A stretch of 64,000 nucleotides of DNA from Cephalotus follicularis. Taxonomy: Eukaryota; Streptophyta; Magnoliopsida; Oxalidales; Cephalotaceae. Where the stretch lies: assembly GCA_001972305.1 (NCBI GenBank), contig BDDD01000054.1, forward strand, positions 602,576 to 666,575, in the 5' to 3' direction. Below are positions 1 to 62,551 of the stretch, in pieces. The notes under the pieces were generated by a model. The model was not told the DNA's origin. It searched no databases and worked only from the letters and a program-made list of their open reading frames with translations. Every line of letters starts with the position of its first letter. The first letter of the stretch is position 1. A program made the position numbers and the translations under genes.

Positions 1-671
1 CCAGGAATCGTCAGAGAGCCGTTTGAATCAAGAATGGAAAGGATCACACCATTTCAACACCTTCATTCTTTGTAAATTTCATGTCTGGCTGTCATTGGCG
101 TTGACGTGTACTAATGGCGTTGACGCTTATCTTCTTATGCGTTGACTCTTTTAGCTTTCTGTGTTGATAGTCCAAGCTCTTATTCATCTTTAGTTCTGTT
201 CATGTTGACGTGCATCCATGGTGTTGACGTATAAGATCAAGATGTTGACGCCATAATGCCCTCGCGTTAACGTCCAAACCTACTGTCCGAAATGTGCACC
301 ATTTGCGATGACGTCTTCATATGGCGTTGACGTCTATAGACAAGTTGTTGACGCCACTTGTTTTCTGCGCTGACGTCCAAGCCATTTACATTAACTTCTT
401 CATATGGGCGTTGACGTAGATCATAATTTCCCAGCACGTTGACGCCGTTAGTGAATGACGTTGACAAGAATCATCTTTTCAAGCCCAGAACGCGTATCCA
501 TTCCCAGCACGTTGACGCGTATAACATAATCGTTGACGCCAAAAGTACTGATATGCTTTTCTATGCTTTCTTGCAACACAAGTTAACTTAGATAATGATT
601 CCTGCACATCAAGCAAACACATTAGGTGTTTTGTTATCATCAAAACAAGGATTGTAACATATAATGTCAAC
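1..671 (-). mobile_element. Sirevirus-like LTR, partial (5' end of the LTR at 671)
   Basis: The stretch reads on the minus strand as the start of an LTR: TGTTGACATT at 671, then about 30 bases later a block containing TTTTGATGATAACA. The same block lies at the matching place in the LTRs of the element at 42873-45888. Most of the rest is an array of GTTGACG motifs (see 98-545). The far end lies outside the window. No purine tract follows 671, so this is either a solo LTR or the outer edge of a 5' LTR. Assignment to a Sirevirus-like family rests on the shared LTR start only. Confidence 0.55.
98..545. repeat. Phased GTTGACG motif array (TTGA variant of the TCGA palindrome)
   Basis: About 18 copies of GCGTTGACG-like sites. 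Cores (TTGA or a variant) start near 101, 120, 142, 164, 204, 224, 244, 267, 327, 348, 370, 391, 411, 439, 461, 512 and 533. Steps are 19-23 bp or about twice that. TTGA here could be a decayed TCGA (C to T at a CpG), since the same arrays elsewhere keep TCGA. Confidence 0.8.
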
Positions 672-911
672 ATTTATCACTGTCATTGGTTTATGTGTCA
701 TGTATCCCTCGTCATACTTTGCTCAGACCGCAGACCAGGGTTTGGATTAATGTCTACCCCAGGTAAAACTGAGATAAATATAATTCTATGAATGCACTAA
801 GACTATCGGGAGACATCTTAGGAAACCACTTGTTTCAAATCTCCCAAGTACTTGGCCAAGACTTTAAGTCTACAATGGTCATAAGCCTGTCACCCTCAAC
901 GCGACTGTGAC
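672..911. other. Unassigned flank
   Basis: No coding signal or repeat boundary recognised. It continues after the solo LTR at 3561, because the flanks share GTGAC/GTGAT. It is AT-rich single-copy-looking sequence or an old repeat. Confidence 0.4.
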
Positions 912-1408
912 TGTCATGCCCCGAACCCCAAGAAAAACCCCAAGGCTTGACACGTGGTAGGTCCATCCCTACCATCCATGAAAAAAAAACCATAAATTTA
1001 AAAATTCAAACACCATATGCATGTGGAAGACAAAATCAATATTTAATGATAAGCCTAACCATATCCATACACTTAATACACATATCTTAAGCACTGCCAT
1101 AAGCCGGCAGGTCAAAACTGAATTACAACATGTCTCTTATACATTTTGCACTCATATACATAAGGTGGAGATCAGGAACTGAGCTACTGTTAGAATCCCG
1201 CGCTGTCATTCATCCCATCCATTAACTGCTATGCCTCAGCTGGGCCTGACCCATTCCATTACAATGAAATGGGTCAGCGATATATGGTCATATAGGTGTA
1301 CTATATGCCATGTAATGCAACCGATATAATGAAATGGCATTCGATGCAACAGATATAACAATATGTACGGCATGACATATGTATGAATTCCAAGTATGGA
1401 CAACTTCG

Positions 1409-1440
1409 ATATACCAACTGTCCCTAAGCAGTGGTATACT
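1409..1440. repeat. Conserved hairpin inside family D LTR
   Basis: The arms ATATACCA-CTG and CAG-TGGTATAC flank a short loop (TCCCTAAG). The same hairpin is at 37157-37188 in the second family D LTR, so it is conserved although the surroundings have diverged. Confidence 0.65.
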
Positions 1441-1635
1441 TTGCTAGTCCTAGAATCACATCAAAGGCCATAGGCCTACAGACACTCCATAAAACCATCT
1501 ATAGCCATACCATTGGAACAATCAATCCATAGGGTCAAGTAATTCTCTGTCTCTCCGTCCTAAGATAGTACCTCCACCGTTCATGCACTCTCCATGCCAT
1601 ATCCAGTGGAGCATAGGATAACACCGACCACATAT

Positions 1636-1980
1636 CCATAATGCTAGTCCCGAAGGTACTAGCCCCCTGAGGGGAACTGTCCAACTCTATCCCGAAGGAG
1701 CTCAGCACGATCTACCCTAAATCCATAATGCTAGTCCCAAAGGTACTAGCCTCTGAGGGGACCTGTGCGACTGTATCCTGAAGGAGCTCAGCACGATCTA
1801 CCCTAAATCCATAATGCTAGTCCCGAAGGTACTAGCCCATGAGGGGACCTTTGCGACTCTATCCTGAAGGAGCTCATCACGATCTATCCTAAATCCATAA
1901 TGCTAGTCCCAAAGGTACTAGCCCCTGAGGGGACTTGTACGACTCTATCTTGAAGGAGCTTAGCACGATCTACCATAATC
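1636..1980. repeat. Tandem repeat, 86-87 bp unit, four copies
   Basis: Units begin CCATAATGCTAGTCCC at 1636, 1723, 1809 and 1895, and a partial fifth ends near 1980. Each holds a GCTAGTCCC...GGTACTAGC inverted pair and a GAAGGAGCTCA block. The related LTR at 36271-39809 has a different tandem repeat at the matching place (37381-37490). Confidence 0.85.
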
Positions 1981-2519
1981 CCTAAAATGTGGCCTCCATC
2001 CATAATTCTTCATGACGTAAATGAAGATTATGAATGGGTTATTTCGTAAAGTCTCAACCATAACAATCAACAGCCATAGCTGTACCATATCCATAATCCA
2101 TATAAAAGATAGGGACCTACCATAAAGGATCTCATAGGATCCACATCCGTCAAAACCATTTAAAAACCAGTTCCATAGCCATAAGCCTTTCCATAACCCT
2201 TTTCCATAACCATAAACCATTTACATTTTTCGGTCCCTATCGAAGTTTTTAAAACCATGGAGAGGAAGTCTAACTAGGATATCCGCGTCCAGATGTCTCA
2301 ATTGAGCTATCCTAACCATTCTTGAAAACCATTTGTATAAAACCCCTTTTTACAAAAATTTCTTTAAAATTGATTTTTGAAGTTTAACCTTTAGTTTAAA
2401 AGGGTTAAAATAGGATTTCCATAGGCTTCAAGACCTTAAGGAGGCTTCCTATGGAATCCATTTGGCGAGAAAATCATTTGGGTTTAAAACCAGAAAATTT
2501 GGCTAAACAAGACAGGGGC

Positions 2520-2835
2520 TTTAGGCGTCGACGTATAAGGTCTAAGCGTTGACACTTTACGCTAGGCGTCAACGCTTAAAGCATTATGCCTTAAGAATCG
2601 ACACATGCGCTAAGCGTCAACAGCTAGCAACACATAAGGCATCAATGCTTACTGAAAGCATCGACGCTTATTGAAAGCGTCGACGCTTATGTCCCCTTCC
2701 CTTATAGCGTTAACGTGCTGCACAGAATAGCGCACAAATGCAAAGACACCTAGGCGTCGATGATTAAGTTGAAAACATAGACACTCTGGGCAATCAAGAA
2801 CAAGTTGACGCGCACGAAGAACACGTTGACGCCCT
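2520..2835. repeat. Phased TCGA palindrome array (GCGTCGACGC flavour) in solo LTR
   Basis: Cores start at 2528, 2549, 2569, 2598, 2617, 2642, 2661, 2680, 2710, 2757, 2778, 2805 and 2826. Most steps are 19-21 bp. The best copies read AAGCGTCGACGCTT, and variants have TTGA, TCAA or a CATCGA arm. Confidence 0.8.
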
Positions 2836-5789: not shown

Positions 5790-6862
5790 GTACTAATCAA
5801 ACCCCAACTGAACATTATAGTTTTATTTTTGGTGGCTGTTTTGAATGATTTTTGTGGCTGTTTTGACATGGTGTCGTCTGTTGCTGTTTAACTGTCGACT
5901 ATTTTGTGTAACCTGCTGACGTTAAGTACTGGTGGAAACATTAAACGCTGACGGTTAGAAAAAACTGTCGACACTTAAGGGTTTAAACTTTGACGATTTG
6001 TTTAAAGCACAGAAGGTTACACGAAGCATTGACGTAAACGTTGACGCTTAGCGTGTAACCGCCGACGCTTAAGGCAAACCGATGCCGCTTTTAACATACT
6101 ATTTGAAAGTTTGGAACTAAAAGATTTAATCCCAGTGAATGCTAAATTTTAATTAATTTAGTGGGAGTCATGATACTTTTTGGCACATCTGTCAAAATTA
6201 ATTCGATTAGCCATCGAAAATTAAAACTGTTTGCGTTTATTCAAAGTTTATATTAGTTATAATTTTTGGATATCTTATGCATGATGGTAGGCTATGGGAC
6301 TTGACCTAGTGTACGATTTTTTTTTTGTGGATGTTTAATTTGCTTTATTAATTTTATTTGGTTTGTAATAAGGTTGCCTGCATGCACCATAATTCCTTAT
6401 CTTTTTATTCCTGTCTAGGATAGGATTCTCTTCTCCCTGTAATTTGTATTCTCTTCTTTAAATGTATTTTATTCAAAGTTTTGTAACCAAATGGAGGAGA
6501 ATCAACTGGAGATTGAAGAGGAAGATCAAGGAAGCTGCAAGACCAAATGAAGACCATGAATGCATGGTGTATTATGTAATAAAGTAGAATTAAATAGTTC
6601 ACCTAGGAGACCAAGTGATCTCATTGGCTCGTGTGGATGACTTATAGTTTTGTCCCTAGCCTAGCCATTTTATTTTATGTTGAACATAGGGTGCATAAGA
6701 TGGATGGTCTAAACACGTCAATGCATGCAAAGCCGTAATTAATTGTAGTTGGCTAGTGAAACCAATGGATTAATTAAATGTTTGGCTAATTAAACTGTGA
6801 GACCTAAATTCCTATAAAAAATTAATAATAAGACACAACGAAGTGACCCGACGTGGCCTTCC
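5790..6862 (+). other. Copia 5' untranslated leader, first part
   Basis: Sequence between the primer site and the point where element A is inserted. It carries a TCGA motif array near its start. No open frame of note. The leader continues at 18605 and reaches the gag start at 19145, so the original leader was about 1.6 kb, long for a copia element. Confidence 0.6.
5890..6075. repeat. TCGA motif array in a copia leader
   Basis: Cores near 5895, 5916, 5948, 5968, 5990, 6029, 6041 and 6062, in steps of 20-22 bp or larger. Motifs include ACTGTCGACTA, GCTGACG and GTTGACGCTTA, a mix of flavours. This array is downstream of the primer site, outside the LTR. Confidence 0.7.
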
Positions 6863-8146
6863 TGTCACACCTCGCCTTCCAGTTATAAACAACATATATG
6901 GTGATATCAGTTATAAATATAATCCAGCATTCAACATTTAACAAATTTCATTAACATAAGCGGAAGCATTCCATTGCCGGATTATAAAAATATCTGAACG
7001 CAACCCATACTACGTGCTTATACAACACTAACAATTATCCTATTGCATATTGGAAATGTAAAACAACAACGGAGTATGATCGTTCATTCAATACAAAACA
7101 TAGTGAATAACGACCTTAACAAAATAGAATCTCTCCAATAAAACTTCAGCAGCACTTCCCCAAACGCCTTCACTTAATCTAAAATTGTAGGGGGTTAGCC
7201 GTTGTCCTCACTTCGCTAAGTAGGAATAAAGCATGATAAAGAATATATAAATGTAACATGCAAGTCAGTTATTTTGAAATAACATATATATAAGTATTCA
7301 AATATATATAAGTAATCATGCCAAGTGGCCATAGACAATACAATTCAGGAATACCGCACAAGGGTAAATCACTCAATACAGTGGTTTGGGTGTCACATGT
7401 CGCTAACTCCTAACACCAACTGCGCACCACCTAACTATCACCCTACACTCCGAAGATGATAGATCAGGTCAATTCTGCCAGCAATTAGCGGGCAGGTAAC
7501 TATTAGGATCTGCATTGCAGATAAGTGTGGTGGAAGCTCTAGCCAACTCCTGGCACATAGGACCACCTCGTAGCCAGTGATGTCTCCTATCACTCGACTA
7601 ACGGCAATAACATAGACAAACAATTCAATCAATTCAGTAGCAATTTTACATATCTATAATATGCAAGATAAAATTGTTTTCTTTTGAAACATTTAACAGT
7701 TCAATAACTGTACCTCTCATTGGAGGAAACGGTATTCAGTACAGTAGTTGTGCTTCTCAAATGAGGAAAATTCGATAATCATTAGACAATAGGTTTTCGT
7801 TTTGAAAACAATAAAGAAAACCCATCATTGTGCTTATAGCACTAGTTGGTTCAATCATTAATATTAAGTGTAACATTAGTACTTATGAACACTTAACAAC
7901 TATATAGTATGTATAACAACATCAATAAACAGCAGCAGAACAATCAATTGAAGGGTTCAACAAGATGTTAGCATACCCTAGTCGTTCTTGCACCACTTCT
8001 CACAATGAGTGCAAGCATTGTTTACCTTCTATAATATAACTACCTAAGGCCAGGATTGACTGTTTCAATCATCCCATGTGGAGGCCAGGGTAATTACACA
8101 CAATTATAAGCCTAACATCAGCTAATTTTTGTATTTTGGCACCTAA

Positions 8147-8264
8147 TAGTCGGTTGTTCATAAGAATAGCTGGCTGTTTTCATTAGGTAGTCGACTGTTT
8201 ATCCTTAACAGTCGACTGTTTACTTTGAGTAGTCGACTGTTGGGATTAAACAATCGACTATTTT
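8147..8264. repeat. 21-bp phased CAGTCGACTG array, promoter-distal cluster, left LTR of A
   Basis: Cores start at 8150, 8170, 8191, 8212, 8233 and 8254, giving steps of 20, 21, 21, 21 and 21 bp. The palindromic arms (AGTCGACTGTT) are kept while the bases between differ (for example TATCCTTA against TACTTTGA against GGGATTAA). Confidence 0.92.
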
Positions 8265-9175
8265 TATCCAGAATTGCCAGGCAGCAGTTTCATAAAACAG
8301 GGTATGCATGCTCACAATCAAATTCCAACCAATCAATAACATGCAATCATACAAAAATCGTCCAGTCATGATATACATATAATATCTTCTAAAACATGTC
8401 AATACCCCTACCTCAATTGCTATCCCAGAATCAAATTCGATTGATTCTTCTCTTTGTGTTCAAAACTCTTTACACCAACTCCAATCCCAATTTCCAGTGA
8501 TTTAATCTACTTGCATGTAAACAGTAGGTGTAAACATTAAAATCAGTAAGTTGTTTTGTTTATCTAATCATGATAACAACTACAATCCAACCAGTAGCTT
8601 AGTGAAATCTCTTTACTCTAGTTCCATATTTAACCAACTTTCATTCCCATTCTAATTCAAGGATTATAGTTCCAAAGTTATGTTTAACAGTGGATACATA
8701 TAGCCAACATCAGTGTTTGATTCACTAACAACCTTAATAATAGTAATAACTCGAAAGGGTGACTTACCAGGAAGATTTAAAACTTCACTCTCCCTTTGCA
8801 ACTCCAATCATCAACATGAAAGCTCCAACAATTCTCTCATTCAATGTTCTCTCCTCAGGGTTTGCTAACACTCAATCAAGCTCTTCACAGCTGATATATA
8901 GAAGGTTTAAAGCTTAAGAATTCGGCAGATTCCATAACTACAAACCAGTATTTACTTCCTCTCTCTCTCATATGCATGTTCCTTACTTTTTCTTCTTTCA
9001 ATTTCTGTCTTGCAGGTTGCAGTCCTGCAGGTGGAATAGAGCACATTCAAGGCACCACCCTTGCATGTTAAGGCAGCTAGTGGCACGCATCTCTCATGCA
9101 TGATACGGTTAGAACACCTGTCGTCATCTGCCCTGCCCTGTTTCATGCCATGCACAGACACCTGTCTGAGCCAGA

Positions 9176-9258
9176 CCAGTCGACTGTTGCCCTGTGACAG
9201 TCGACTGTCACTCCCTGAATCAAAACAGTCGGCTGTTACCCTGTGACAGTCGGCTGTT
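9176..9258. repeat. Phased CAGTCGACTG / CAGTCGGCTG array, U3 cluster, left LTR of A
   Basis: Cores at 9180, 9201, 9229 and 9250, with steps 21, 28 and 21. On the element's sense strand the second pair reads CAGCCGACTG. Confidence 0.92.
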
Positions 9259-9408
9259 TGAGGCTGGTTTTTGGTTTGTTGAGCTTATTCCTTGAATTAA
9301 AAACATAGTCACAAATCGTATAACAAATGGACATTGAAATTCAATGTAAGTGCATATTTTATTCATCAAGAGTACAATATACACGAATTGCAAATTGCGG
9401 TTATTACA

Positions 9409-9421
9409 TTCCCCCATCCTT
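9409..9421 (-). other. Polypurine tract of element A
   Basis: On the minus strand GGATGGGGGAATG directly precedes the 3' LTR start TGTAATAACC. This is the usual second-strand primer position. Confidence 0.85.
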
Positions 9422-13440: not shown

Positions 13441-14599
13441 TCGATTTCGTATATGGAATGTGTCACACCCCGCCTTTCGATTCCATATAGACAAGCATAT
13501 ATGGTGATATTAGAAATAAAAATAAAATCAGCATTCCATTCAACATTCCCAAAAAAAAAAAATAAGCGGAAGCATTTATAACGGGATCATAAAATAGAAG
13601 TCATCCGGACGCAGCCCATACTACGTGCTTATACAATCCAGCAATTATCCTTGTACATAAGGAAGTAAAACAGCAACACGGAGTGTGAACGTTCATTACA
13701 ATTACAAACGACATAAAGTAACAACCTTAAGCAGAATAAAAGCTCTCCAAAAGCTTCAGCAACACTCTCCGAACGCCCTTTCTTTATGTGAAATTGTAGG
13801 GGGTTAGCCGTTGTCCTCACTTGGCTAAGTAGGGAATAATGCATGATAATTGAATATATAATTGTAAATATGCAGGACAGTTATTTAAAATAACACACAT
13901 ATAAGTATTTCAATATATACGCAAACATGCCAAGTGGCCATATACAGCACAATGCAAGATTACCGCACAAGGGTACAATCAATTAGTACAGTGGTTTGGG
14001 TGTCACATGTCGCTAACTCCTAGCAGCAACTGTGCACCACCTATCTATCACCCCTCACTCCGAGGATGATAAATCAGGTCAGTTACTACTGGCATTAGCG
14101 GGCAGTTTAACAATCAAGCTCTGCATTGCAGACAGTTTGGGTGGGTACTCTAGCCAACTCCTGGCACATAGGACCACCTCCGTAGCAGTGATGTCTCCAA
14201 TCACTCGACTAACGGCAATAGCATAGACAATCAATTCAAGAAATTCAGTAACAATATTACATATATCTCTAATATACAATATGACAGCAGTTTTCATTTT
14301 TAGAAAACATAACATTTCAGTCAATGGTTCTCTTGGAGAACTAAACAGTAACAGTGCCTATATGAAGAGGAAAATAGCAGTTTGTGTAACAATAAGATTT
14401 TCTATTAGAAATCCGTTGTTAAAAATCATTAATTATGCTTTAAGCATTGAGTCGATAAAATCCTTGAATATATATATATATATAACAGTAGTAATTTCAT
14501 TAATAAACAGTAATGACAGCTACAATATAGCAGTTCAAGGATAATTGCGATCACAATCCATTCAATCAATTCCATTTAACATTTCTACACTCACTGTTC

Positions 14600-14755
14600 T
14601 AAAGCGTCGATAGTTTCTGTGTAAGCGTCGACGGTTGTTGACTAAGCGTTGACACTGGACGCACGATCAAAGCGTAAGCATCGACATTCTAAGCCTTAAT
14701 ATGCCATTTTCGCACCAAAGCATCGACTGTCTAATCTTAAGCGTCGGCGCTTCTG
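14600..14755. repeat. Phased GCGTCGACGG array, promoter-distal cluster of the solo LTR
   Basis: Cores at 14607, 14628, 14649, 14681, 14723 and 14744. Steps are 21, 21, 32, 42 and 21. Motifs read AAGCGTCGAC, AAGCGTTGAC, AAGCATCGAC and AAGCGTCGGC. Confidence 0.92.
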
Positions 14756-15689
14756 GCGTTCTTACGAATTCCAGGAGCAATATCACAACAGGGCATGCAA
14801 AATTTTCATTCAATCTCAGTCCAAATCATACATGCAATTGAATATTGACCATCACAACACATTATACAGGTTATATGTTCAAAAACATGTCAAAACCCCT
14901 ACCTTTAAAGCAATCCCGAAATCAATCTGAATTGATTTCTCTCTTTGAGTCCAAGTTCTTCAACCTCCAACTTAATCTTCCAATTTCAGCAGAAATTAGC
15001 CTAAACAATTGCATGTTTACAGGTCTATAATTAATACCAGTAAGTTAAACTAGTTATCTAACCATGATAACATCAAGGAATTGAATCAGAAGCTTATAAT
15101 TAACTTCTAAGTTCAACTTTCTAATTCCTAACTAATACAACATTCAATCTCCACTTCCATGCTTTATCCTTCCTAATCATGTTAATAGTGGATGTGTGGT
15201 ACTAACATCAGGGTGTTACATTACTAACAACCTTAACAACATCAAGAAATTTTGGATTACTTACCAATTCCAGGTGATGCTCCAAGTTTCCCCTTTTGAA
15301 CTTTAGGCTCCTCAACCTCTAGCAATCCTCCAGCAATTGTCCAAATTGTCTCTCTATTTCTCAGTGTTTTCTAACACTCAAACAACTCACGTATCAGCTG
15401 ATATAAAGGCCAACTTGTGTCCTTAATTTCATCAGTTTCCTCCAACCTTCATTGCACATTTCTCTCTCCCTCATGCATGCATTCTTTCTTTTGTTCTTTC
15501 TCTATATTTTCTGGCAGGTTGCAGGTTGCAGGCTTTTAGGTCACATGCAAGGCTCTATCCTTGCATGTTACCCAGCTGGTGAAGGCTTCTAGTGTGCATT
15601 GACACATTTACAGGACACATAGCTTGCAAGGAACCCATTTGGCGCCACTGCTCTATTCTAACAGGCGTGTATCACATTCCTGACACCGC

Positions 15690-15820
15690 ACAAAGCGTCG
15701 ACGGTTTTATCTCTGGCATCGACGGTTTGTGCGTCATATCCCAGCCGTCATCTGCGCGTTTTGTACACGTGTCTATGTTCAAAGCGTCGACGGTGTGGAG
15801 TTAAGCATCGGCTGTTTAGA
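15690..15820. repeat. Phased GCGTCGACGG array, U3 cluster of the solo LTR
   Basis: Cores at 15698, 15719, 15787 and 15808. Steps are 21, 68 and 21. The flavour matches the other cluster of the same LTR, not the CAGTCGACTG flavour of element A. Confidence 0.9.
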
Positions 15821-16039
15821 ACCAGAATTTATTTTTTTAATCTTCATTTAAGAATTTATCCCAAATTCCATTCTATTCAAAAGATAACCAACATAAGATC
15901 TCAAAAGTATATTTTGTTCATCATTGGGTACAAAATACATGAATTGAAATTGCGGTTATTACAGAATGACATAATCATTAGGAAACAATTCACTTAATTA
16001 ACGAGAAACTTATCCCAGCGATAGCTTATTTAAAAATAA

Positions 16040-16051: not shown

Positions 16052-17338
16052 TGCTGTCACACCACGCCTTCCAGTTATAGACAACATATATGGTGATATC
16101 AGTTATAAATATAATCCAGCATTCAACATTTAAAAAATTTCATTAACATAAGCGGAAGCATTCCATTGCGGATTATAAAAATATCCGCACGCAGCCCATA
16201 CTACGTGCTTATTCAACACTAACAATTATCCTATTACATATTGGAAATGTAAAACAACAACGGAGTATGATCATTCATTCAATCAAAACATAGTGAATAA
16301 CAACCTTAACAAAATAGAAGCTCTCCAATAAAACTTCAGTAGCACTTCCCTGAACACCTTCACTTAATCTGAAATTGAAAGGGGGTTGGCCGTTGTCCTC
16401 ACATGGCTAAGTAGGAATAAAGCATGATAAAGAATATATAAATGTAACATGTATGTCAGTTATTTTGAAATAACATATATATAAGTATTCCAATATATAT
16501 AAGCAAAGATGCCAAGTGGCCACAGACAATACAATTCAGGAATACCGCACAAGGGTAAAATTAATCAATACAGTGGTTTGGGTGTCACATGTCACTAACT
16601 CCTAGCACCAACTGCACACCACCTAACTATCATCCTACACTTCGAACATGATAGATAAGGTCAATTCTGCCGACAATTAGTGGGCAGGTAACTATTAGGA
16701 TCTGCATTGCAGATAAGTGTGGTGGAAGCTCTAGCCAACTCCTGGCACATAGGACCACCCCGTAGCCAGTGATGTCTCCTATCACTCGACTAACGACAAT
16801 AACATAGACAAACAATTCAATCAATTCAGTAGCAATTTTACATATCTATAATATGCAAGATAAAATTGTTTTCTTTTGAAACATTTAACAGTTCAATAAC
16901 CGTACCTCTCGTTGGAGGAAATGGTATTCAGTACAGTAGTTGTGCCTCTACAATGAGGAAAATTCGATAATCATTAGACAATAAGTTATCGTTTTGAATA
17001 ACAATAAAGAAAACCAATCATTGTGCTTATAGCACTAGTTGGTTCAATCATTAATATTAAGTGTAACATTAGTACTTATGAACACTTAACAGCTATACAG
17101 TATGTATAACAACATCAATAAACAGCAGTGGAACAATCAATTCAAGGGTTCAACAAGATGTTAGCATACCCTAGTCATTCTCGTAGAACTTCTCACAATG
17201 AGTGCATGAGTTGTTAACCTTTTGTAATATAACTACCTAAGGCCAGGATTGACTGTTGCAATCATCCCATGTGGAGGCCAGGGTAATTACACACAATTAT
17301 AAGCCTAACAGCAGCTAATTTTTGTATTTTGTCACCTA

Positions 17339-20030: not shown

Positions 20031-20039
20031 TCATACAAT

Positions 20040-44294: not shown

Positions 44295-44499
44295 TTACGA
44301 AATCAAGATTTGAATACCATAACAAGATATTAGCAATAACATTCAAACAATATTTAAACAACCATAATATCAACACCATATATACCAAACACATTTCATT
44401 AATAAACACTATGTCTTATAACACAAAAATAAAAATTCAAAATTACATAAACAACAATTTTGATTACAACCAAAAACAGCAACACATAGCAATCAAGAA

Positions 44500-45484
44500 T
44501 CATGCAGGAGGAGGATCGGAATCGTGAGAGGATTCATCACCCGAAGTGTCTTCGCATGTGTCGATAGTCTTGGATGCAGCAAGCTTTCGTTCCAAGAGTT
44601 TGAGACATCTCTTGGTGACATGTAGATCGTAGTAGATAGTATCTTCGATAGTCTCAAAGTCGGATCGAATAGTCATGTGATCCTTTTCCAAGTTATCGAG
44701 GTGCGAGTTCACTTGCTCGAATTTGCCTTCAATTGATGCTTCCATCGAATCGAACCTAGTGTTCAAAGCATCAAATAGAGCACTCATAAATTCCATCATC
44801 CTATCATAATCACTAGTGGAAGATGATCCTTGAACTTGAAAAGGTGGAGCTTCTTGGGCTTCCCATGGAGGGATTTCTTCATGTTCTTCTCTCTCAATCT
44901 TCTGCCCTTGATCACTTTTTGGACAGTAAGTCCAATTTCCATCTTGCTTCTTCCATCCCATGCGGTTTAGGGTGCTCTTATTGTAAGTATCCTCCTTCTT
45001 TAACTTGGTTCCAATCTCTCCTTCAAGAAGGAGTTGATGAACGATAAGGTGATGGAGAAGACGATGATCCACAGAGAGTTTGTTTGTACAAAGTGCCATG
45101 TTTGGATGTATATTTGGATCATTGGGGTAGAGAATTGACAAGATGTGATTAGGGTGAAAACCCTCGACTTTTGGCCATTTTTTGTACTCAAAGATTTAAA
45201 TGCTGGTATGAGGAATATGTAGAATAGAAGCAAGAACCCTAGCATCTAAGAATATACGTTGTCCTTTAACAGTTGAGGAGAGGGCAAATTCCTCATGAGG
45301 ACTAGAAACAATTCTCAAATTCATATAGAATTCCTTGATGAGTTTGACATAGAAAATGTCTTGAATTTGAACAAGTGGAATGAGGTGCAACTCTTCTAGC
45401 CAGGAAACAAAGGAGAATTCATTGGAACAGAAAGCTAAGTCTATTCCTACCTCCCATAACTCTTTTATCAACAAAAGCTACATT
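44500..45484 (-). pseudogene. Gag-like ORF with putative plant transposon domain
   Basis: One reading frame with a single in-frame stop at 45196-45198. The first part (MLIKELWEVGID ... IKEFYMNLRIVSS ... TVKGQRIFLD) resembles the domain of unknown function found in many plant transposon-derived proteins (putative plant transposon protein). The second part (213 codons from the ATG at 45141) is acidic, with a likely coiled coil (SHLDNLEKDHMTIRSDFETIE) and an acidic Ser/Asp tail. The true start is lost at the LTR junction near 45484. Function unknown; it may supply a capsid-like role for a non-autonomous element (inference). Confidence 0.6.
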
Positions 45485-45888
45485 TCGATGTCTTCACATC
45501 CAAGGATCGATGTCTTCACTCAAAATCGACCTGTAATTCTGGTAGCTCAAGACGTCGATGTCTTCTTGAAAGGGATCGATGTCTTTTGTTTGGACGTCGA
45601 TGTCTTTGCCTATAAGGATCGATGTCTTTGCTCAAATTCGACCTGTAACTTTGGTGTACTAAAGACGTCGATGTCTTTCTTGAAAGGGATCGATGTCTTT
45701 CTCCAAAAGCGGCCTGTAACTTTGGTAGCTTTAAGACGTTGATGTCTTTTGCAATAGGGATCGATGTCTTTTGGTATGCAACTGTCTTTTGCCTTTTGTG
45801 ATTCTTCCTAACATCTTGCACATTAAGTAAACTTGTTAAATGCAAATATGTTATCATCAAAACTGGGATGGAGGCTAAATCGTCAACA
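45485..45888 (-). repeat. Truncated 5' LTR of the Sirevirus-like element, with motif array
   Basis: Matches 43537-43927 of the intact LTR. It keeps one motif (near 45660-45675) that the other LTR has lost by a short deletion. The R-U5 part and primer site are missing. Confidence 0.85.
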
Positions 45889-47698: not shown

Positions 47699-48394
47699 TG
47701 TCACACCCCGTTTCACAAACAACGTATATAGTGGTGGCAATCAACATATAAATCCGGCTTATGCAATTTACCATAAATTTAAAACTTTCAAATGCCATTA
47801 ACAACTTGCGAAAGCATTTAAATATAAACCGAATTAAAACATAACATGCATCCCATACTACATGCTACAACAATAAAAATCATCAAAGTTAACTGCCCTC
47901 AAACGGAGCGTGAACAATATTCATCAATGCATCGATTCATTTATTACAATGATCCATTAACATTTCTCAAAAGGAAAACAACATAAAACTCCATTCGCTC
48001 CACAGAACTCAACGGTAACAATCCACTACATCAACCTGAAATCAATCTGAAATAGTAGGGAGTTAGCCTTTGTCCTCACTCGGCTAATTATATATACAGT
48101 TTGGTTTCAACGATAAAACATGTCATGTATGAATGCATAGTGATGTAGTACGGTATATATAACGGTATATACATATATGTATCTATATATGCATATTCAT
48201 AGTATAGGTGCAACCCGTAGGGATACATCAACACAACCACAATCAGGTCCTCAGCGGACCAGTCACAATCATGTCCTCAAAGGACTGGACAAACCATTAG
48301 TTATGCCTGAACGGGCCAACAATCTAGTAAAACATGTCACAACGGACAAACAATCCATTACAGTCAATCAATCATGTCATCACGGACAACACTC

Positions 48395-48780
48395 TATGCG
48401 GGGATGCTTCCACTCTATGTTTACCACCCGGTCACTTCCACTCTATGTTTAGCAACCCGGTTACTTCCGCTCTGCATTTAGTAACCGCCATAACAATCAA
48501 TCAGTCAAACAGTCATTCCAGGGATGCTTCCACTCTGTGTTTAGCACCCGGTTACCTCCACTATATGTTTAGCAACCCAGTTACTTCCGCTCTGCGTTTA
48601 TCAACTGCTGAAGGTGGGAGTCCCTGGCTACTTCCACTCCGTGTTTAGTAGCCCAGTTACTTCCGCTCTGCGTTTAGTAACCACAATATGGGAAACCCTA
48701 GCTACTTCAACTCCGTGTTTAGTAGCTAACACATATGAACTCCTAGTTACTTACACTCCGGGTTTAGTAACTAATATGGA
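48395..48780. repeat. Tandem repeat around CTTCCRCTCTGYGTTTAG
   Basis: About ten units of 27-60 bp, each with TTACTTCCRCTCTGCGTTTAG and variants, followed by YAACCCGG. The same array is at 57105-57480 in the partner LTR. Confidence 0.85.
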
Positions 48781-49244
48781 ATTCCCATCACATTGAATCA
48801 ATCGGTGATGCTAACCGGCCCCGAGCTAGGAAAGCACATGGCTAATCGTCCCGTGGTGCTAGGAAAGCTCAACAATCAAACAATCCAGTCAATTATGTTT
48901 CAAGTAGTCTATATTTTCATAAATTCTTGAAATCATATCCATACATATAGATGTATACAAAACAGTCCTTTCCAAAACAGTCATCAAGTAGTTTATATAA
49001 AATAAAGTACTTGCCCAAAACACATTTACTCAAAATATGTATCAATCCTTTGAAATCTCGTTTCAATCTTTGAAATATAGCATTTCATAAAAAATATTTG
49101 TTATAACAAAACCATAATCTCATTGTCTAAAATTAAAAACACTTTAGCAATTATATACATTTCAATCCATAACAGTATGCAATGCAAACGAGCTTTATTC
49201 GCGTCAACATGTACCATATAGTCGTTAATGTTCAACCCAGTCAC

Positions 49245-49495
49245 TTAAGCGTCGCCGCTTAACTCTTAGCGTAAACACTTTCAACCAAAAACTTTACGCG
49301 TCAACGCCTCATCCCTTTGGCGTCGATGCTCTGAGGTAGGAACCTCAGGCGTCAACGACACACGTGTCCATTCTCACATACAACGAATCATGGCATCGAC
49401 GTTTTCTGTAAGCGTCGACGTTTATCACGAATCATGACTCATTCTCCGTATAACAATCCATAGCATCGACGCTTCTTTCCTAAGCGTCGATGGTT
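49245..49495. repeat. GCGTCGACGC array, left LTR of C
   Basis: Cores near 49252, 49272, 49301, 49323 and onward to 49487. Steps of 20-22 and 29 bp. Motifs include TTAAGCGTCGCCGCTTAA, TAAGCGTCGACG and AGCATCGACGCTT. Confidence 0.82.
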
Positions 49496-51033
49496 AAGTG
49501 AACCAAAACACGGTTCCTTCAACACGTCTCAAAACCAATAGAGTTCAAGCATACAACACATGCAATCTGATCTACAATCATTGTAAAACACAATATGCAT
49601 GATGGGTTAACTATTCATAGCAACCCTAACACAGTCACACAATCCATAATCCACAGTCCACAATCATTCTAAGACACGATATGCATAACAGGTTAACTAC
49701 TCATAGCAACACTAGCACAGTTACACAATTCACAATCCGCAAACCATGCATTTCATCAATGGAATTACATTATTATTGAACTGAAACTTGCGTGTAAAGA
49801 TTCCCCTACCTCTTACAAACCGGGCTGCAGGTTCAATTGCCGAACACTTCCGATTACCGTTGAACCGATTTTGGTTCTTACCAATTGATCCATTCCTCAC
49901 TGCCAAACCAAAATACCAGCTCGCTCACTGCACATATAACACATTTTAATTATGTTCATCACACAGAAACTGACATCGTTGTCGCCGAAGCGCCGACCAG
50001 AATCCGACCGACTCACCCAGATTGTGCAACACCCATAAACGGGTTCCACCTTGAATGTTCTACTCAAAATCGGTCAAGACTCACCGTGAATAGGCACCGA
50101 ACGCTGTGTCACCGGCGGCAGCGAGTTGCGACTCACTGAGTCGACTCGCCCGACTTCATCAGATTCAGCCACCACCCAAAAACGCCACAAATTCGACAGT
50201 CCTCGCGTCACTGCCTGAGACTCACCAAGACTCAGTGCCAAACACCGTGTCTCAGGCGGCAGTGACTCAACTCGCTAAGTCGACTCAGCCAAGTGATTCT
50301 GGCCGATTCTGGCCGAAATACGCCTCAACGGCGGTCAAAAAGGGAAGAGCGGGCCTTCTAGACCAAAACCCAACCCATTCGCGATGCTAACGGTACTGGG
50401 AAACGCATGGCAGAGGCGCGAACAGTGACGAGAAGAGAAGAAGAAAAAGAGAAAAAAGAGGAGAATGGGGAAGAGCTTACTAGCGGGTTGAGGGCCTGGG
50501 TTGCTCGCCGTCGTCTCCTGGTCCGGTGGCTGGCTCCGACGCGCTCTCTCTCCCTCCACTCTGAGCTCTCTCCCACTCTCTCTCGCTATCTCTCGCTGTG
50601 TCTCTTTCTTTGCACGGGCGCGCTATGCGCTCGTGTCTCTCTTTTGTTAAATGTCTCTCCCCCATTTCTTTATTAGTTTTTTGTCTTTCATTTTGGTATT
50701 TCAGCAGCAAAATACTAAGATTTGAGTCCCGATTATTCCACGAATTGGGACATTAATTAATCCAACCACTGCTAAAATAATCGCAATAAAAAAGCGAACA
50801 TTGGGCTTCACTGTCGCGCATTAAAAACATGCTTTATTAGCAGTTTTGGGCAACATAATTGCGACTTTAATGCTAAATGCCTTAAACATTTCCTTATCAT
50901 TCCTCTTTCAAAACTCGACGTTATAAAAGGGAAAATGTCATCAAAGTCGGGAATTTCACTTTCCTCATTAATTCCATAATAAGATTACATTAAAATTTTA
51001 ATCTTACATTTTGTGAAAGACCCAGGCGTTACA

Positions 51034-56407: not shown

Positions 56408-59400
56408 TGTCACACCCCGTTTCACAAACAACATATATAGTGGTGGCAATCAACATATAAATCAGGCTTATGCAATTTACCATAAATTTAAAACTTTCCA
56501 ATGCCATTAACAACTTGCAGAAGGATTTAAATATAAACCGAATTAAAACATAACATGCATCCCATACTACATGCTACAACAATAAACATCATCAAAGTTA
56601 ACTTCCCTCAAACGGAGCGTGAACAATATTCATCAATACATTGATTCATTTATTACAATGACCCATTAACGTTTCTCAAAAGTAAAACAACATAAAACTC
56701 CATTCGCTCCACAGAGCTCAACGGTAACAATCCGCTGCATCAACCTGAAATCAATATGAAATTGTAGGGGGTTAGTATTTGTCCTCACTCGGCTAGGTAT
56801 AAATACAGTTCGGTTTCAACGATAAAGCATGTAATGTATGAATGCACAGTGATGCAGTACGGAAAATATAATGATATATACATATATGTATCTATAAATG
56901 CATATTCACAGTACATGTGCAACCCGAAGGGCTACATACACATAATCACGGTCAGGTCCTCAGCGGACCAGTCACAATCATGTCCTCAAAGGACCGGACA
57001 AACCATCAATTATGCCTTAACGGGCCAACAATCCAGTAAAACATGTCACAACGGACAAACAATCCATTACAGTCAATCAATCATGTCACCACGGACAAAC
57101 TCTATGCGGGGTCGCTTCCACTCTGTGTATAGCACCCGATCACTTCCACTTTGTGTTTAGCATCTCGATTACTTCCGCTATGCGTTTAGTAACCGCCACA
57201 ACAATCAATCAGTCAAACAGTCACTCCAGGGATGCTTCCACTCTGTGTTTAGCACCCGGTTACTTCCACTGTGTGTTTAGCAACCCAGTTACTTCCATTC
57301 TGCGTTTAGCAACTGCCAAAGGTGGGAGTCCCTGGCTACTCCCACTCTGTGTTTAGTAGCCCGGTTACTTCCGCTCTGCGTTTAGTAACCACAATACGGG
57401 AAACCCTAGCTACTTCCACTCCGTGTTTATTAGCTAACACATATGAACTCCTAGTTACTTACACTCCGTGTTTAGTAACTAATATGGAATTCCCATCACA
57501 ATCAATCAATCGGTGATGCTAACCGTCCCCGAGCTAGGAAAGCACATGGCTAACAGTCCCGTGGTGCTAGGAAAGCTCAACAATCAAACAATCCTGTCAA
57601 TTATGTTTCAAGTAGTCTATATTTTCATAAACGCTTGAAATCATATCCATACATATAGATGTATACAAAACTGTCCTTTCCAAAATAGCCATCAAGTAGT
57701 TTATATAAAATAAAGTACTTGCCCAAAACGTATTTACTCAAAATATGTATCAATCCTTTGAAATCTCGTTTCAACCTTTGAAAGATAACATTTCATACAA
57801 AATATTGGTTATAACAAAACCATAATCTCATTGTCTAAAATGACAAACACTTTAGCAATTATATACATTTCAATCCATAACAGTATGCAATGCAAACATA
57901 TGTTCAAAATGCAAACGAGCTCTATTCGCGTCAACATGTACCATATATGCGTTAATGTTTAACCCAGTCACTTAAGCGTCGCTGCTTAACTCTTAGCGTC
58001 AATGATTTCAACCAGAAACTTTATGCGCCAATGTCTCATCCCTTTGGTGTTGATGCTCTGAGGTAGGAACCTCAGGCCTCAACGGCACATGTGTCCATTG
58101 TCACATACAACAAATCATGGCGTCGACGTTTCTATAAGCGTCTACGTTTATCACGAATCAGGACTCATTCTCCGTATAACAATCCATAACATCGACACTT
58201 ATTTCCTAAGCGTCGACAGTTAAGCGAACCCAAACACGGTTCCTTCAACACATCTCAAAACCAATAGAGTTCCAGCATACAACACATGCAATCCGATCTA
58301 CAATCATTGTAAAACACAATATGCATGACGGGTTAACTATTCATAGCAACCTTAACACAGTCACACAATCCAGAATCCATAGTCCACAATCATTCTAAGA
58401 CACGATATGCATGGAAAGTTAACTACTCATAGCAACCCTAACACAGTCACAAAATTCACAATCCGCAAACCATGCATTTCATCAATGGCATTACAATATT
58501 ATTGAACTCAAACTTGCGTGTATAGCTTCCCCTACCTCTTACAAACCGGGCTGCAGGTTCAATTACCGAACACTTCCGATTACCATTGAACCGATTTCGG
58601 TTCTTGCCAATTGATCCGTTCCTCGCTTCCAAACCAAAATACCAGCATGCTCACTGCAAATACAACACATTTTCATTACGTTCAACACACAAAAACCGAC
58701 ATCGTTGTTGCCGGAGCGCCGGTCGGAATCCAACCGACTCACCCAGCTTGTGCACCACCCATAAGCAGGTTCCACATTGAAAGGTCTACTCAAAACCGGT
58801 CAAGACTTGCCGTGAATCAGCGCCGAACGCCGTGTCACCGGTGGTAGCGAGTTGCAACTGACTGAGTCGACTCGCCCGACTTCATGAGCTTCGGCCACCA
58901 TCCAAAAACTCCACAAAATTGACAGTCCTACGCGTCATTGCCTGAGACTCACCGAGACTCGGCGCCAAATGTCGTGTCTCAGGCGGCAGTGAGTTTACTC
59001 GCTAAGTCGACTCAATCAAGTGATTCTGGCCGAAATACGCCTCAACGACGGTCAAAAAGGGAAGAGCGGGCCTTCTAGACCAAAACCCAACCCATCCGTG
59101 ACGCTAACAGTGTCGGGAAACGTACGACAGAGGCGCGCACAGTGAAGGGAAGAGGAGAAGAAAAAGAGAAAAGAGAGGAGAAGGGGGAAGAGCTTACCGG
59201 CGGGTTGACGGCCTGGGTTGCTCGCCGTCGTCTCCTGGTCCGGTGGCTCTCTCCCTCTGCTCCGAGCTCTCTCCCACTCTCTCTCGCTATCTCTCCCTGT
59301 GTCTCTTTCTTCGCACGGGCGAGCTATGCGCCCATGTCTCTCTTTTGTTAAATGTCTCTCCCCCATTTCTTTATTAGTTTTTTGTCTTTCATTTTGGTAT

Positions 59401-59734
59401 TTTACCAGCAAAATACTAAGGTTTGGGTCCCGATTATTCCACGAATTGTGACACTAATTAATCCAACCGCTGCTAAAATAATCGCAATAAAAAAGCGAAC
59501 ATTGGGCTTTACTGTCGCGCATTAAAAACATGCTTTATTAGCCGTTTCAGGCAACATAATTGCGACTTCAATGCAAAACGCCTTAAACATTTCCTTATCA
59601 TTCCTCTTTCAAAACTCGACGTTATAAAAGGGAAAATGTCATCAAAGTCGAGAATTTCACTATCCTCATTAATTCCATAATAAGATTACATTAAAATTGT
59701 AATCTTACATTTTGTGAAAGACCCGAGCGTTACA
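56408..59734 (-). repeat. Element C 5' LTR
   Basis: TGTCACACCCCG to CCGAGCGTTACA, the partner of 47699-51033. Carries the same tandem repeat (57105-57480), TCGA array (57970-58220) and duplicated block. Confidence 0.95.
57970..58220. repeat. GCGTCGACGC array, right LTR of C
   Basis: Cores at 57979, 57999, 58028, 58050, 58079, 58123, 58141, 58192 and 58213. Steps of 18-22, 29 and larger. Several sites have decayed relative to the left LTR (TCAA for TAAA, TTGA for TCGA, TCTA for TCGA). Confidence 0.82.
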
Positions 59735-59802: not shown

Positions 59803-60068
59803 AATAAGTTTTAATTTATTCAACTAATTCGTAGTATTTTTTTTTTCCCGTTTTCGTGTTTTGTCTAACAATTTCTAACTTGGTTTAATTAGGGTTCATC
59901 ATAAGCTTTAACAAAACTCTAACATCATTGCATAATCTTTAACAATCTTTCACTTGGTTAATTTAGCTTCTTTGCTTTATTTTGTTTCGGTGTTCGCTAG
60001 TAATTTAATTTCCCTTAGCTAACCTTAGGTTTTCTGCTTTGCGTTAGTAACTTATCTGAGTCAGTTAG
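59803..60068 (+). other. Athila-like leader
   Basis: AT-rich sequence with no gene, between the primer site and the solo LTR. It continues at 62532 and reaches the gag start. Confidence 0.55.
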
Positions 60069-61257
60069 TGTCACGCCCCGGTTTCAGGTAGACACACATA
60101 ACGTGGTAAAGGAAATTAACATTAAGATTTAGCTTATGCAAATACCATAAAATATAAACTTTTCAAATAAAACATCAGTTGCGGAAGCATTAAACGTCAT
60201 AAGCTAAAAACATGTAACGTGCATCCCATACTGCACGCTACTCAATACAAGTCTGTCGTTGTCAAAAGCCCACAAAACGGAGCATGATCCATAATACATT
60301 AATCAGTAACATCCAAAAGTCTAGTAAACCAGAAAATACGATACACAACACACAAAGGGACATAACGCCTAGTAAAACATTAATAAAAACTTGTACTTCA
60401 TCCATGCTGGTTCCCTAGCCGATCCACTGCATCAATCTGTAAAGTAGGGAGTTAGCCGTATATATATATAAAATTTAACAGTATGGTAAAATATCAGTAG
60501 GAACATATAAGAAAATATATGTATGCAACAACAGTACAGTGGTAGCCCGGCCAGGGTTACATCAAACAGGCACAGTAGTGTCCGAACAGGACCAGTAAAT
60601 AGTACAGTAAGTCCACAAAGGGACCCCAAACAGGCATGCAGTATGTGTAACACCGCCAACTCCTGGCCCCATGTTACACTCCCACTTTGGTCCCTACTCC
60701 AGGCAACCAAGCAAGACAACAGTACAGTACAGTGAGTTACCTAGCCAACTCCTGGCTCCTAGGTTAACCTTGCCACTAGCTAGTGCTGGCAGTCTCAGCC
60801 ATGCAACTAGTGGCTCAAGCATAACCACATAAAATTCACAGAGCAAACAGTGAATAGTCACAGTAAACAGTGCAGTGAACAGTACAGTAATGATCGTTAG
60901 ATCAACAACAGGCAGTTCATTTCAAACCATTTTCAAAAGTCGTAAACATTTGAAATAAGTATTTTAAGTAGTGGAAAATACTTTTAAACAGTTCAGTGGG
61001 TGGAGATCACTTTCCCAGTTGTTCAAAAATAGGTTATTATCAAATATCTATTTCGTATTCGAAATAGTGATTTTCAGTTTCACATATGCTTTTCTAAATT
61101 AACATAGTAATCTAGAAATCATAAACAGTTTATAATCAGTCAATAAACAGGTAGTAAGCAGTACATATGCAATGCATACAGATGCCCTAATGCATTCTAA
61201 ACAGAGTCGGGATTGTCGTGCATCGTTTTAAGCAAGAGAGAACCAAACAGCAGCTTG

Positions 61258-61425
61258 GCAGCCGGCTGGATTCTTCACCAGTTGGCTGTTATGAGTAATT
61301 AGTACATGAGTAGTCGGTTGGTTCCTTCTACCATTCGACTTGTTCATCAAGCAATCAACTGTTATCCTTCAACAGTCGACTGTTTCGGTTGAGCAGTCGG
61401 TTGTCTTCCTTCGACAGTCGACTGT
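61258..61425. repeat. Phased CAGTCGACTGT array, promoter-distal cluster
   Basis: Cores at 61262, 61282, 61314, 61335, 61355, 61376, 61397 and 61418. Steps are 20, 32, 21, 20, 21, 21 and 21. Confidence 0.92.
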
Positions 61426-62251
61426 TCTGGGAAACCAGTTACATGCAGTCCAATATATATCACTCAAACGGATCATTGCAAGCATCCACATATATTCTCA
61501 AGACAAAATATCATCAATCAGTCCTCAAAAGGTTCATAGAACACAACAGTAAACATGCATTTTATCCAGCAATTCAATACCAAGATAAAACTCAACATGC
61601 ATGTACATGAACTCAAATGATTCTCAACAATAAACATGGTATGCGAAAAACCAGTAGTAACCATGGCATATCAACTGAACATCATAGCTCATACAAGCAG
61701 GAAACCAATCGCATAACATTCAGTAATCTTGAGCTCAAAATACAAACATAGCTTCCCCTACCTTTTGATTCCAAGTTAGGAATCTGTAAGTCCACCTCTT
61801 TTTGTTCCAACATTGACGTTTTGAGCTCCCCAGACGCTTCAACTCCAAATCCAGTAGCTCCAACCCGTCCCGTCCAAACTCCTCTTGGTTCAACAATTTG
61901 AGAATCTCTCTCTCTTTCTCTCACGATTCCTCACTGTTTTTCTCTGTAATTCTCACTGGTTTCCTTTCCTTGTATGCACTGGGCGAGAGAGGTGAAGAGG
62001 GGAGAGGTTTATGCAGGTGGTTCTCTCCCTCTTTTCTCCAACCCGTTTTCCATGGCACTAAATGCCATACTCCTCTCATATCTGCATGCACACACACATA
62101 AGACTAATTCTCCCTATCCCATGACCTGCATGGCGCACAGGTGTTCACTCTTCCCTCTGCATTGACCGCATGACGCACATATGGCACACCCTTCCTCCTT
62201 GTCAGTCGTTGCATGTGATTTCGTCACATGCAAAAAAAAACAGAGCATAAG

Positions 62252-62402
62252 CCAGTCGGGTGTTCTTCCCCGACAGTCGGCTGTCCTATTGGTTGTGGTT
62301 TCCATGTGGCTCGACAATGCTCCAGTCGGCTGGTTCGTCCCACCAGTCGATTGTTCCATTAAACGGTCCACCAGTCGGCTGGTCTATTACACCAGTCGAC
62401 TG
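62252..62402. repeat. Phased CCAGTCGGCTGG array, U3 cluster
   Basis: Cores at 62256 and 62277 (21 apart), then 62326, 62347, 62375 and 62396 (steps 21, 28, 21). Confidence 0.92.
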
Positions 62403-62551
62403 CCCCCGTCAATATTTCAACAATCATACATCTAAGTGTTTTGATTTGATTTGCGAATCAAAATATTAGCTGGGAAATTTATCTTTCTCATTCATTTAAT
62501 AACAAGATTACATTTGGAATTCAAATATACAGTTAGTGTCTTCTTTAGTTT

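Follow-up and report, generated by a model that had tools for sequence, protein, structure and literature searches.

Helically phased palindrome arrays with a CG-centred core in LTRs of gypsy and copia retrotransposons of Cephalotus follicularis

Do unrelated retrotransposons carry the same kind of palindrome array, and what would such arrays be for? This question is raised by a 64,000-nucleotide stretch of the Cephalotus follicularis genome (the window, Table 1). A first-pass annotation reported at least 21 clusters of short palindromes with a TCGA core there. The count depends on the definition: 18 clusters have at least two arm-class sites within 80 bp, and 12 have at least three. The palindrome arrays themselves are confirmed, and they are far larger in extent than the window.

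Table 1. Positions of LTRs, palindrome arrays and an associated ORF in the window.
Feature	Position	Strand	Details
GCG-arm sites	2661..2760	none	steps 19, 77
Gypsy element E1 LTR, 3' copy, with CAG-arm arrays	6862..9412	-	94% pair with 16054-18609
E1 distal array, six sites	8150..8257	-	steps 21, 21, 21, 21, 20; four TCGA cores, two variant (CCAG, CCGA)
E1 proximal array	9180..9232	-	steps 28 and 21; cores CCGA, TCGA, TCGA
Solo LTR E1b within E1, arrays with GCG half-arms	13461..15962	-	GAATG flanks both sides
E1b distal array	14607..14747	-	four TCGA sites, GCG/GCA one side, plus one CCGA site
E1b proximal array	15698..15790	-	GCG/GCA one side, CCG other side
E1 LTR, 5' copy	16054..18609	-	same arrays partly decayed, ~17343-17429 and 18397-18428
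GCG-arm array	22764..22822	none	steps 21, 34; downstream of copia ORFs 19394-22340
CAG-arm array	30894..31062	none	steps 21, 31, 50, 63
Mixed-arm array	38189..38421	none	steps 80, 29, 60, 29, 31
Insertion inside older gypsy LTR	42873..45888	-	has GACG-arm arrays and ORF
GACG-arm arrays	43283..43803	none	clusters 43283-43387 and 43517-43803
ORF	44500..45195	-	related to 438-aa PF20167 protein of L005
GACG-arm array	45485..45764	none	steps 22, 48, 21, 21, 22, 49, 22, 71
Gypsy element E5 LTR, 3' copy	47699..51033	-	91% pair; gag between LTRs; GCG-arm array 49323-49490; GAG-arm sites 50141 and 50280
E5 LTR, 5' copy	56408..59734	-	array 58123-58216, sites 58867, 59007
CAG-arm pair	61376..61421	none	42 bp apart
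CAG-arm pair	62347..62399	none	49 bp apart

TCGA occurs 228 times in the window against 166.6 (sd 13.1) across 200 dinucleotide shuffles, and GTCGAC 39 times against 5.9. There are 16 TCGA pairs 21 bp apart, where the shuffles have a mean of 0.55 and a maximum of 3. For none of eight control tetramers (ACGT, CCGG, GCGC, GATC, AGCT, CATG, TGCA, TTAA) is 21 among the 12 commonest distances in the window. The whole 1.58-Gb genome has 25,896 CAGTCGACTG pairs exactly 21 bp apart and 89 for the reversed pattern. The same pairs are found 5 times at 16 bp and 47 times at 25 bp, so 21 bp is preferred ~290-fold over the reversed control and more than 500-fold over 16 or 25 bp. For a second arm class the genome has 1,915 GCGTCGACGC pairs at 21 bp against 3. 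The first 24 genome loci hold 46 TCGA pairs at this distance, where the mean over distances is 5.8; ACGT gives 4 against 1.7 and GCGC 2 against 0.4. Across 29 loci, each of 10 kb with N removed, 104 TCGA pairs fall at 19-22 bp, and shuffled sequence gives 7.0 (at most 15 in 100 shuffles). The proposed excess of 21-bp spacing over shuffles is thus present in the window and, for 19-22 bp, in the 29 loci, and genome-wide against the reversed control. Viral contigs scanned for both 21-bp patterns gave 0 matches. Steps of 28-32 bp had also been claimed. They exist but are weak, since unfiltered TCGA pairs in the 29 loci reach 2.2 times the shuffled number there and 2.4 times at 25-27 bp. Arm-class sites give 12 pairs at 28-32 bp and 2 at 23-27 bp. 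Whole-genome TCGA pairs 31 bp apart number 41,066, and the reversed AGCT control gives 29,461; we do not take this difference as evidence of phase.

Is 21 bp the only unit? We argue that it is not. An array was defined as a chain of three or more sites whose steps do not exceed 75 bp, or 80 bp in the phase tests on 21 groups and 84 steps, from which singles and pairs were dropped. The groups were made from BLAST matches of at least 50 bp (E 1e-6) and are over-merged, one of them joining copia and gypsy arrays, which lowers n. Site distances in the 21 groups (354 kb) follow a 10.2-bp period, with the best period at 10.22 bp (bootstrap 10.0-10.4). Pair distances of 25-135 bp fall on even turns 66 times, on odd turns 60 times and on half turns 41 times, where 1:1:2 is expected. 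Odd turns are as common as even turns and half turns are depleted, so the phasing is helical and more than a 21-bp repeat. Vector strength is 0.40. Jittering the steps outside 19-22 bp gives a mean of 0.13, and 0.40 was reached in 3 of 5000 such cases. Adjacent steps are in phase in 72 of 84 cases and off phase in 12; the test period of 10.3 bp was picked post hoc, after a peak at 10.25 had been seen. Leaving aside steps of 19-22 bp, 30 of 42 are in phase (p 0.008). The copia element L016 is phased less well, as its steps of 46 bp and 45 bp do not fit the phase. The idea that the sites are set on one face of the DNA holds up. The statement that spacing is most often exactly 21 bp needs amending: the phase stands, but its unit is one turn of ~10.2 bp, and odd turns count as well.

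The sites are palindromic or nearly so. Their main arm classes, which were defined post hoc, are CAG, GCG and GACG around TCGA. Among 45 non-redundant pairs, neighbouring units agree at 60-76% in the five bases that adjoin the core on either side. Agreement falls to 38-53% at the next two bases and to 27-31% farther out, so the spacers are at background identity and have drifted while the palindromes were kept, as the annotation had it. It is equally right that arms are array-specific around a shared core: arm class is identical in 0.69 of comparisons within an array and 0.35 between arrays. The core is common to the arrays but not strictly TCGA. Among 165 CAG-NNNN-CTG sites TCGA occurs 54 times, CCGA (or TCGG) 55 times and CCGG 3 times. 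With GCG arms CCGA is found in 3 of 63, and with GAC arms it is missing from the 8 commonest cores. Asymmetric cores keep both arms (left CAG in 41 of 60 and right CTG in 44 of 60, copies not thinned).

Several Ty3/gypsy families and one Ty1/copia element, L016, have the arrays in their LTRs, and 17 of 30 sequences bear them. Gypsy RT or gag is found between array-bearing LTRs. E1 has gypsy gag, RT, RNase H and integrase ORFs between its LTR pair, with a PBS at 16051 on the minus strand. The claim that both superfamilies carry arrays is borne out, with gypsy in the window, but the clean copia case is elsewhere in the genome. The labels Sirevirus-like and Athila-like could not be confirmed. In L016 it is AAGTGGGAGA that adjoins the 3' LTR, and not the Sirevirus PPT octamer AGGGGGAG. 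Its LTR has no match to any of the ten gypsy LTRs compared. LTR stretches of L005, L006 and L013 match each other in only 28 short hits of 20-78 bp, and all 28 contain at least one TCGA. Array offsets are 181-1260 of ~2,550 in the E1 LTR, 751-1616 of 3,335 in E5 and 1293-1456 of 2,230 in L016. In E1 and E5, TATA-like strings lie downstream of arrays; E1 has such a string upstream of its distal array too (position 513). E1 and E1b have related LTRs (80% and 66% in two blocks), and the same place holds one arm class in E1 and another in E1b. This switch is partly one of half-sites. Each E1b distal TCGA site has GCG or GCA on one side only; the degenerate other sides are CTA, CCG, ATG and CAG, so one retains CAG.

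We think it somewhat probable, judging from the sequence, that the phased palindromes are cis-regulatory (enhancer) platforms of the LTR for a sequence-specific host factor. Each site would be bound by a factor that reads the CG-centred core by way of one half-site or of both. Phasing would set neighbouring molecules on one DNA face, and together they would raise LTR transcription and help to switch the elements on. Several related host factors or dimers may read the different arms. The platform is not required, since E3, another gypsy LTR in the window, has no array. A broader scenario, which we put forward tentatively, is convergence of the unrelated superfamilies on one shared helical lattice. 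Its dyad sites would have a CG core, and a host family of DNA-binding proteins would read their exchangeable arm dialects. The dialect would switch while the lattice stays, making a regulatory code that is shared and fought over genome-wide. If a host factor does bind the arrays, one protein family would touch tens of thousands of retrotransposon sites in two superfamilies, and the dialects would record the factor exploited by each family. The helical phase makes the function directly testable.

Other routes to such arrays must be weighed. One can imagine that a 21-bp unit was duplicated in tandem neutrally, or that a segment was copied between elements, and that the palindromes were kept by chance or recent origin. 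Compared with E1, L008 is short by about one unit of 21 bp, arms are similar within an array, and a tandem-repeat finder picks up some arrays. Yet the arms are kept while spacers sit at background identity, the GCG-arm places listed have spacers of many kinds, odd-turn distances contradict duplication of a 21-bp unit, and the copia and gypsy LTRs have no other detected similarity. We consider this scenario very improbable, and a plain tandem repeat or a single copied segment with conserved spacers is ruled out by spacer identity, spacer variety and the lack of other LTR similarity. Rotational positioning of nucleosomes, with the sites as a bending signal, is the least credible scenario. Nucleosomal DNA has a repeat close to 10.2 bp, and the best period agrees with it. 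However, bending needs no fixed dyads of 10-16 bp with array-specific arms, and sites preferentially stand two turns apart, not one. It is also quite unlikely that array transcripts form hairpins from which siRNAs are made. This was proposed for maize Sirevirus palindromes (PMC10760457, in the text available), and of the seven arrays folded out of 44, four do better than almost every shuffle (z -7.1, -4.2, -4.1, -4.6). The other three do not (z -1.1, +1.0, -1.4), hairpins do not need a helical phase, and odd-turn distances rule out 21-nt small-RNA phasing.

An anti-silencing role is unlikely too, although more can be said for it. A host or element-encoded factor would bind the array and keep the LTR unmethylated, as VANC does for VANDAL, and arms would evolve to escape or follow it. 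Related LTRs do differ in arms, and VANC targets likewise evolve as repeats (PMC5735166, in the text available). Across 14 LTR-like pairs CpG decay is lower in the palindromes than elsewhere, at 18/105 against 193/540, counting only CpG to TG or CA and leaving out other CpG changes (67 here). Stratified over the 9 informative pairs the odds ratio is 0.42 (p 0.0045), while non-CpG substitution is alike (38/978 and 818/18,888). Stricter array sites give 11/60 against 136/396 (p 0.083), and against other TCGA CpGs 11/60 compared with 11/40 (p 0.65). CpG protection in the arrays is suggestive, not established. Three of 30 sequences have relatives of the ORF at 44500-45195, and in all three, arrays with GACG or GCG arms lie no more than ~3 kb away. 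Of 369 PF20167 relatives at E 0.001 or better, the best 120 are all from Cephalotus. However, arrays are in 17 of 30 sequences and the ORF in 3. An element-encoded binder of the PF20167 type was rejected; its structure model was useless (mean pLDDT 36, 28-member alignment). A Pfam scan of 20 ORFs in the window, which has 92 of at least 90 aa, gave no VANC-like match.

If the arrays are indeed enhancer platforms, what could the host factor be? We know of no AP2 domain that binds as a dyad, nor of DRE elements in dyad arrays with two-turn phasing. DREB/CBF-type AP2 proteins are nonetheless a weak candidate because the CAG-arm half-site G(T/C)CGAC is close to the HvCBF1 motif (G/a)(C/t)CGAC, as given in the title of Xue 2002. 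The reading is weak because the T/C tolerance is confined to CAG arms and is absent with GCG and GAC arms, in which an A adjoining the core may stem from CpG decay.

How do these arrays compare with known systems? The Drosophila gypsy Su(Hw) insulator is a retrotransposon-borne site array for a host DNA-binding protein, but it differs in sequence, position and host. VANC targets are dense, fast-evolving short motifs in transposon non-coding DNA, but as described in the available part of PMC5735166 they are non-palindromic and in a single orientation, and VANC is element-encoded. A maize Sirevirus palindrome, CACCGGACNNNGTCCGGTG, is common to Helitrons and was treated as RNA secondary structure. 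Like ours it spans unrelated transposon superfamilies, but its sequence is different and the available text of PMC10760457 mentions no helical phasing. In the Sirevirus repeated motifs (RMs; Bousios et al. 2010, PMC2829016), many short palindromes, varying in sequence by element, also cluster in the LTR. The text available calls them Sirevirus-specific, with a CGG-CCG signature in all except Tnd-1. Our main arms lack that signature, our hosts are gypsy elements and a copia element without the Sirevirus octamer, and the same text mentions no spacing phase. The annotation knew of no core shared across superfamilies with 21-bp phasing. TCGA-centred RMs had already been printed for the Sireviruses Tnd-1 (ACAATCGATTGT) and Vitis (CGGTCGACCG), but the spread and the phase were not found in the literature searched. 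Palindromic arrays in Sirevirus LTRs, two of them TCGA-cored, are already known, and the question of their function gains a large set of natural variants. As far as the searched literature goes, what is new is that such arrays reach beyond Sireviruses, that they are helically phased and that their arms are exchangeable.

The preferred spacing is real. In the window 16 TCGA pairs lie 21 bp apart, where shuffled sequence has a mean of 0.55, and there are 39 GTCGAC sites compared with 5.9 in shuffles. Twenty-nine further 10-kb loci from the same genome hold 104 TCGA pairs at 19-22 bp against 7.0, 61 at 40-43 bp against 7.2, and 52 at 61-64 bp against 6.7. Patterns were also counted across the assembly (1,577,397,061 bp, 9,746 contigs), in which the window lies at C54:602576-666575. 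There are 25,896 matches to CAGTCGACTG-N11-CAGTCGACTG, a 21 bp spacing, compared with 89 for the reversed control; CAGTCGACTG pairs number 5 at 16 bp and 47 at 25 bp. For GCGTCGACGC the 21-bp count is 1,915 against 3. The first-pass annotation's 21-bp spacing exceeds its controls both in the window and genome-wide. The 28-32 bp steps it also described exist but are weak. Unfiltered TCGA pairs in the 29 loci number 21 against 9.4 at that distance, but 13 against 5.4 at 25-27 bp, so three-turn steps are nothing special in this count. CpG tetramers other than TCGA have little 21-bp signal. In the first 24 loci TCGA has 46 pairs at 21 bp against a mean of 5.8 per distance, ACGT has 4 against 1.7, GCGC has 2 against 0.4, and 21 bp is absent from the listed distances of CCGG.

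The spacing of the arrays is helical. The phase test used TCGA sites from the window and the 29 loci with a recognised arm, meaning the bases flanking the core, on at least one side. There were 44 arrays of at least three chained sites, which BLAST matches of at least 50 bp merged into 21 groups. One representative was kept per group and its distances of 25-135 bp were classed by turn. The 21 groups gave 66 even-turn, 60 odd-turn and 41 half-turn distances where 1:1:2 is expected. When steps other than 19-22 bp were jittered by up to 5 bp, 3 of 5000 trials attained the observed vector strength. The distances fit a period of 10.22 bp best (bootstrap 10.0-10.4). Adjacent steps are in phase in 72 of 84 cases, and among steps outside 19-22 bp the figure is 30 of 42. 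The off-phase steps in the copia element of locus L016 are 46 and 45 bp, and the two in locus L012 are both 44 bp.

What is kept is the site and its distance, and the spacers drift as the first-pass annotation had it. For neighbouring units 19-22 bp apart (45 non-redundant pairs), identity is 0.60-0.76 across the five bases flanking the core on each side, 0.38-0.53 for the two bases past these, and 0.27-0.31 farther out. The main arm classes are CAG|TCGA|CTG, GCG|TCGA|CGC and GACG|TCGA|CGTC. That arms are specific to an array was also borne out: two half-sites share a class with probability 0.69 within one array and 0.35 between arrays, with at least one half unclassified in 45 of the 113 sites of the group representatives. 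The core-adjacent G of GCG and GACG arms is often replaced by A, which is the pattern CpG decay would give. GCG-arm cores are rarely CCGA (3 of 63), and TCAA, a decay form, is common (17). CAG-arm cores are TCGA in 54 cases, CCGA or TCGG in 55 and CCGG in 3. At 60 CCGA sites phased with a TCGA site both arms are retained: CAG on the left in 41 and CTG on the right in 44. The asymmetric variant CAGCCGACTG/CAGTCGGCTG is as frequent as CAGTCGACTG in 354 kb and has the same phase (for example at window positions 9229-9232 and 17343-17346); the doubly changed CAGCCGGCTG is rare there, with 3 cases.

CpG protection in the arrays is only a hint. Across 14 LTR-like pairs 18 of 105 CpGs in palindromes have decayed versus 193 of 540 elsewhere, and non-CpG substitution is 3.9% and 4.3% respectively. 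A stratified analysis of the 9 pairs containing both sorts of CpG gives an odds ratio of 0.42 (p 0.0045). Stricter sites have 11/60 decayed versus 136/396 (p 0.083), and versus other TCGA sites it is 11/60 to 11/40 (p 0.65).

Elements and open reading frames at or near the arrays. Plain coordinates are window positions; L004, L005 and L016 are further 10-kb loci.
Feature	Position	Strand	Details
Gypsy LTR pair, E1	6862-9412/16054-18609		Encloses Ty3/gypsy genes; primer-binding site adjoins 5' LTR
Gypsy LTR pair, E5	47699-51033/56408-59734		Encloses Ty3/gypsy genes; primer-binding site adjoins 5' LTR
Solo LTR, E1b	13461-15962		GAATG on each flank; two blocks 80% and 66% identical to E1 LTR
Gypsy LTR pair without TCGA array	24213-26890 and 41890-47625		Copies 89-91%; one copy split by 3-kb insertion
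Copia LTR	L016: 3' LTR start 448, polypurine tract 459, primer-binding site 5515		2,230 bp, TGTTAG to CA
PF20167 "putative plant transposon protein" ORF	L005:8323-9639	-	Pfam hit, L005 copy; coiled-coil-like tail
PF20167-type ORF relative	44500-45195	-	
PF20167-type ORF relative	L004:1-1040	+	

Arrays had been assigned to both gypsy and copia elements. This holds for gypsy LTRs in the window and for the copia LTR in L016, which contains six sites; the window's own copia array lies only downstream of ORFs, by about 430 bp, and LTR borders were not found there. These ORFs match PF14223 and PF07727, and the gag-to-RT hits of L016 are 53-70% identical to them. L016 has a second array of four sites (5092-5193) in the 5' untranslated region, outside the LTR and 322-420 bp past the primer-binding site. 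One could imagine that all arrays are a single copied segment with conserved spacers. However, the L016 copia LTR has no blastn match to ten gypsy LTR stretches (word size 7, E 0.001), and the spacers drift. Similarity among the gypsy stretches of L005, L006 and L013 is confined to 28 hits 20-78 bp long; every one holds at least one TCGA, and 27 hold at least two sites counting decayed cores. The gypsy LTR at 24213-26890 has no TCGA array, and the insertion splitting one copy of that pair brings GACG-arm arrays. The window also has ordinary tandem repeats that are not TCGA arrays, at 1634-1985 (86 bp), 33470-33637 (69), 48407-48605 (29) and 53304-53495 (39).

We argue that the arrays are most likely a protein-binding platform in the LTRs. 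A dyad-like site repeated on one helix face, with freely drifting spacers in non-coding LTR DNA, is what such a platform predicts. The predicted factor would dock at each site, all of them facing one side of the helix. The solo LTR E1b, inserted between the gag and primer-binding site of a related gypsy element, shares with E1 the flank that precedes the distal array. In place of the CAG arms of E1, the E1b sites carry GCG or GCA on one side and are degenerate on the other. In L008, a gypsy LTR homologous to E1 has CAG arms and about one unit fewer. That the arms differ at one and the same position suggests that an element can switch to another factor, or to another member of a factor family. 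DREB/CBF proteins are the sole named candidate, and a weak one, put forward since the CAG-arm half-site resembles (G/a)(C/t)CGAC, reportedly the motif in the title of a 2002 paper by Xue.

Arrays lie within about 3 kb of a PF20167-type ORF in L005, the window and L004. This ORF has 369 relatives at E 0.001, and the best 120 of the 369 are all from Cephalotus follicularis with identity up to 95%, so the DNA probably comes from this species, the Australian pitcher plant.

Palindromic LTR arrays are already known. The portion of Bousios et al. 2010 (PMC2829016) consulted describes palindromic repeated motifs in 13 Sireviruses, two with TCGA centres, and its classic copia set is without them. Targets of VANC, the VANDAL-encoded anti-silencing protein, are described in the consulted parts of Hosaka et al. 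2017 (PMC5735166) and of PMC10398659. Neither such arrays in gypsy elements nor helical phasing of LTR palindromes appeared in a survey of titles and abstract openings that included few subscription papers. The Sirevirus motifs resemble ours in being palindromic and in two cases TCGA-centred, whereas the arrays described here are also in gypsy LTRs. As far as the surveyed literature goes, the gypsy occurrence and the helical phasing are new.
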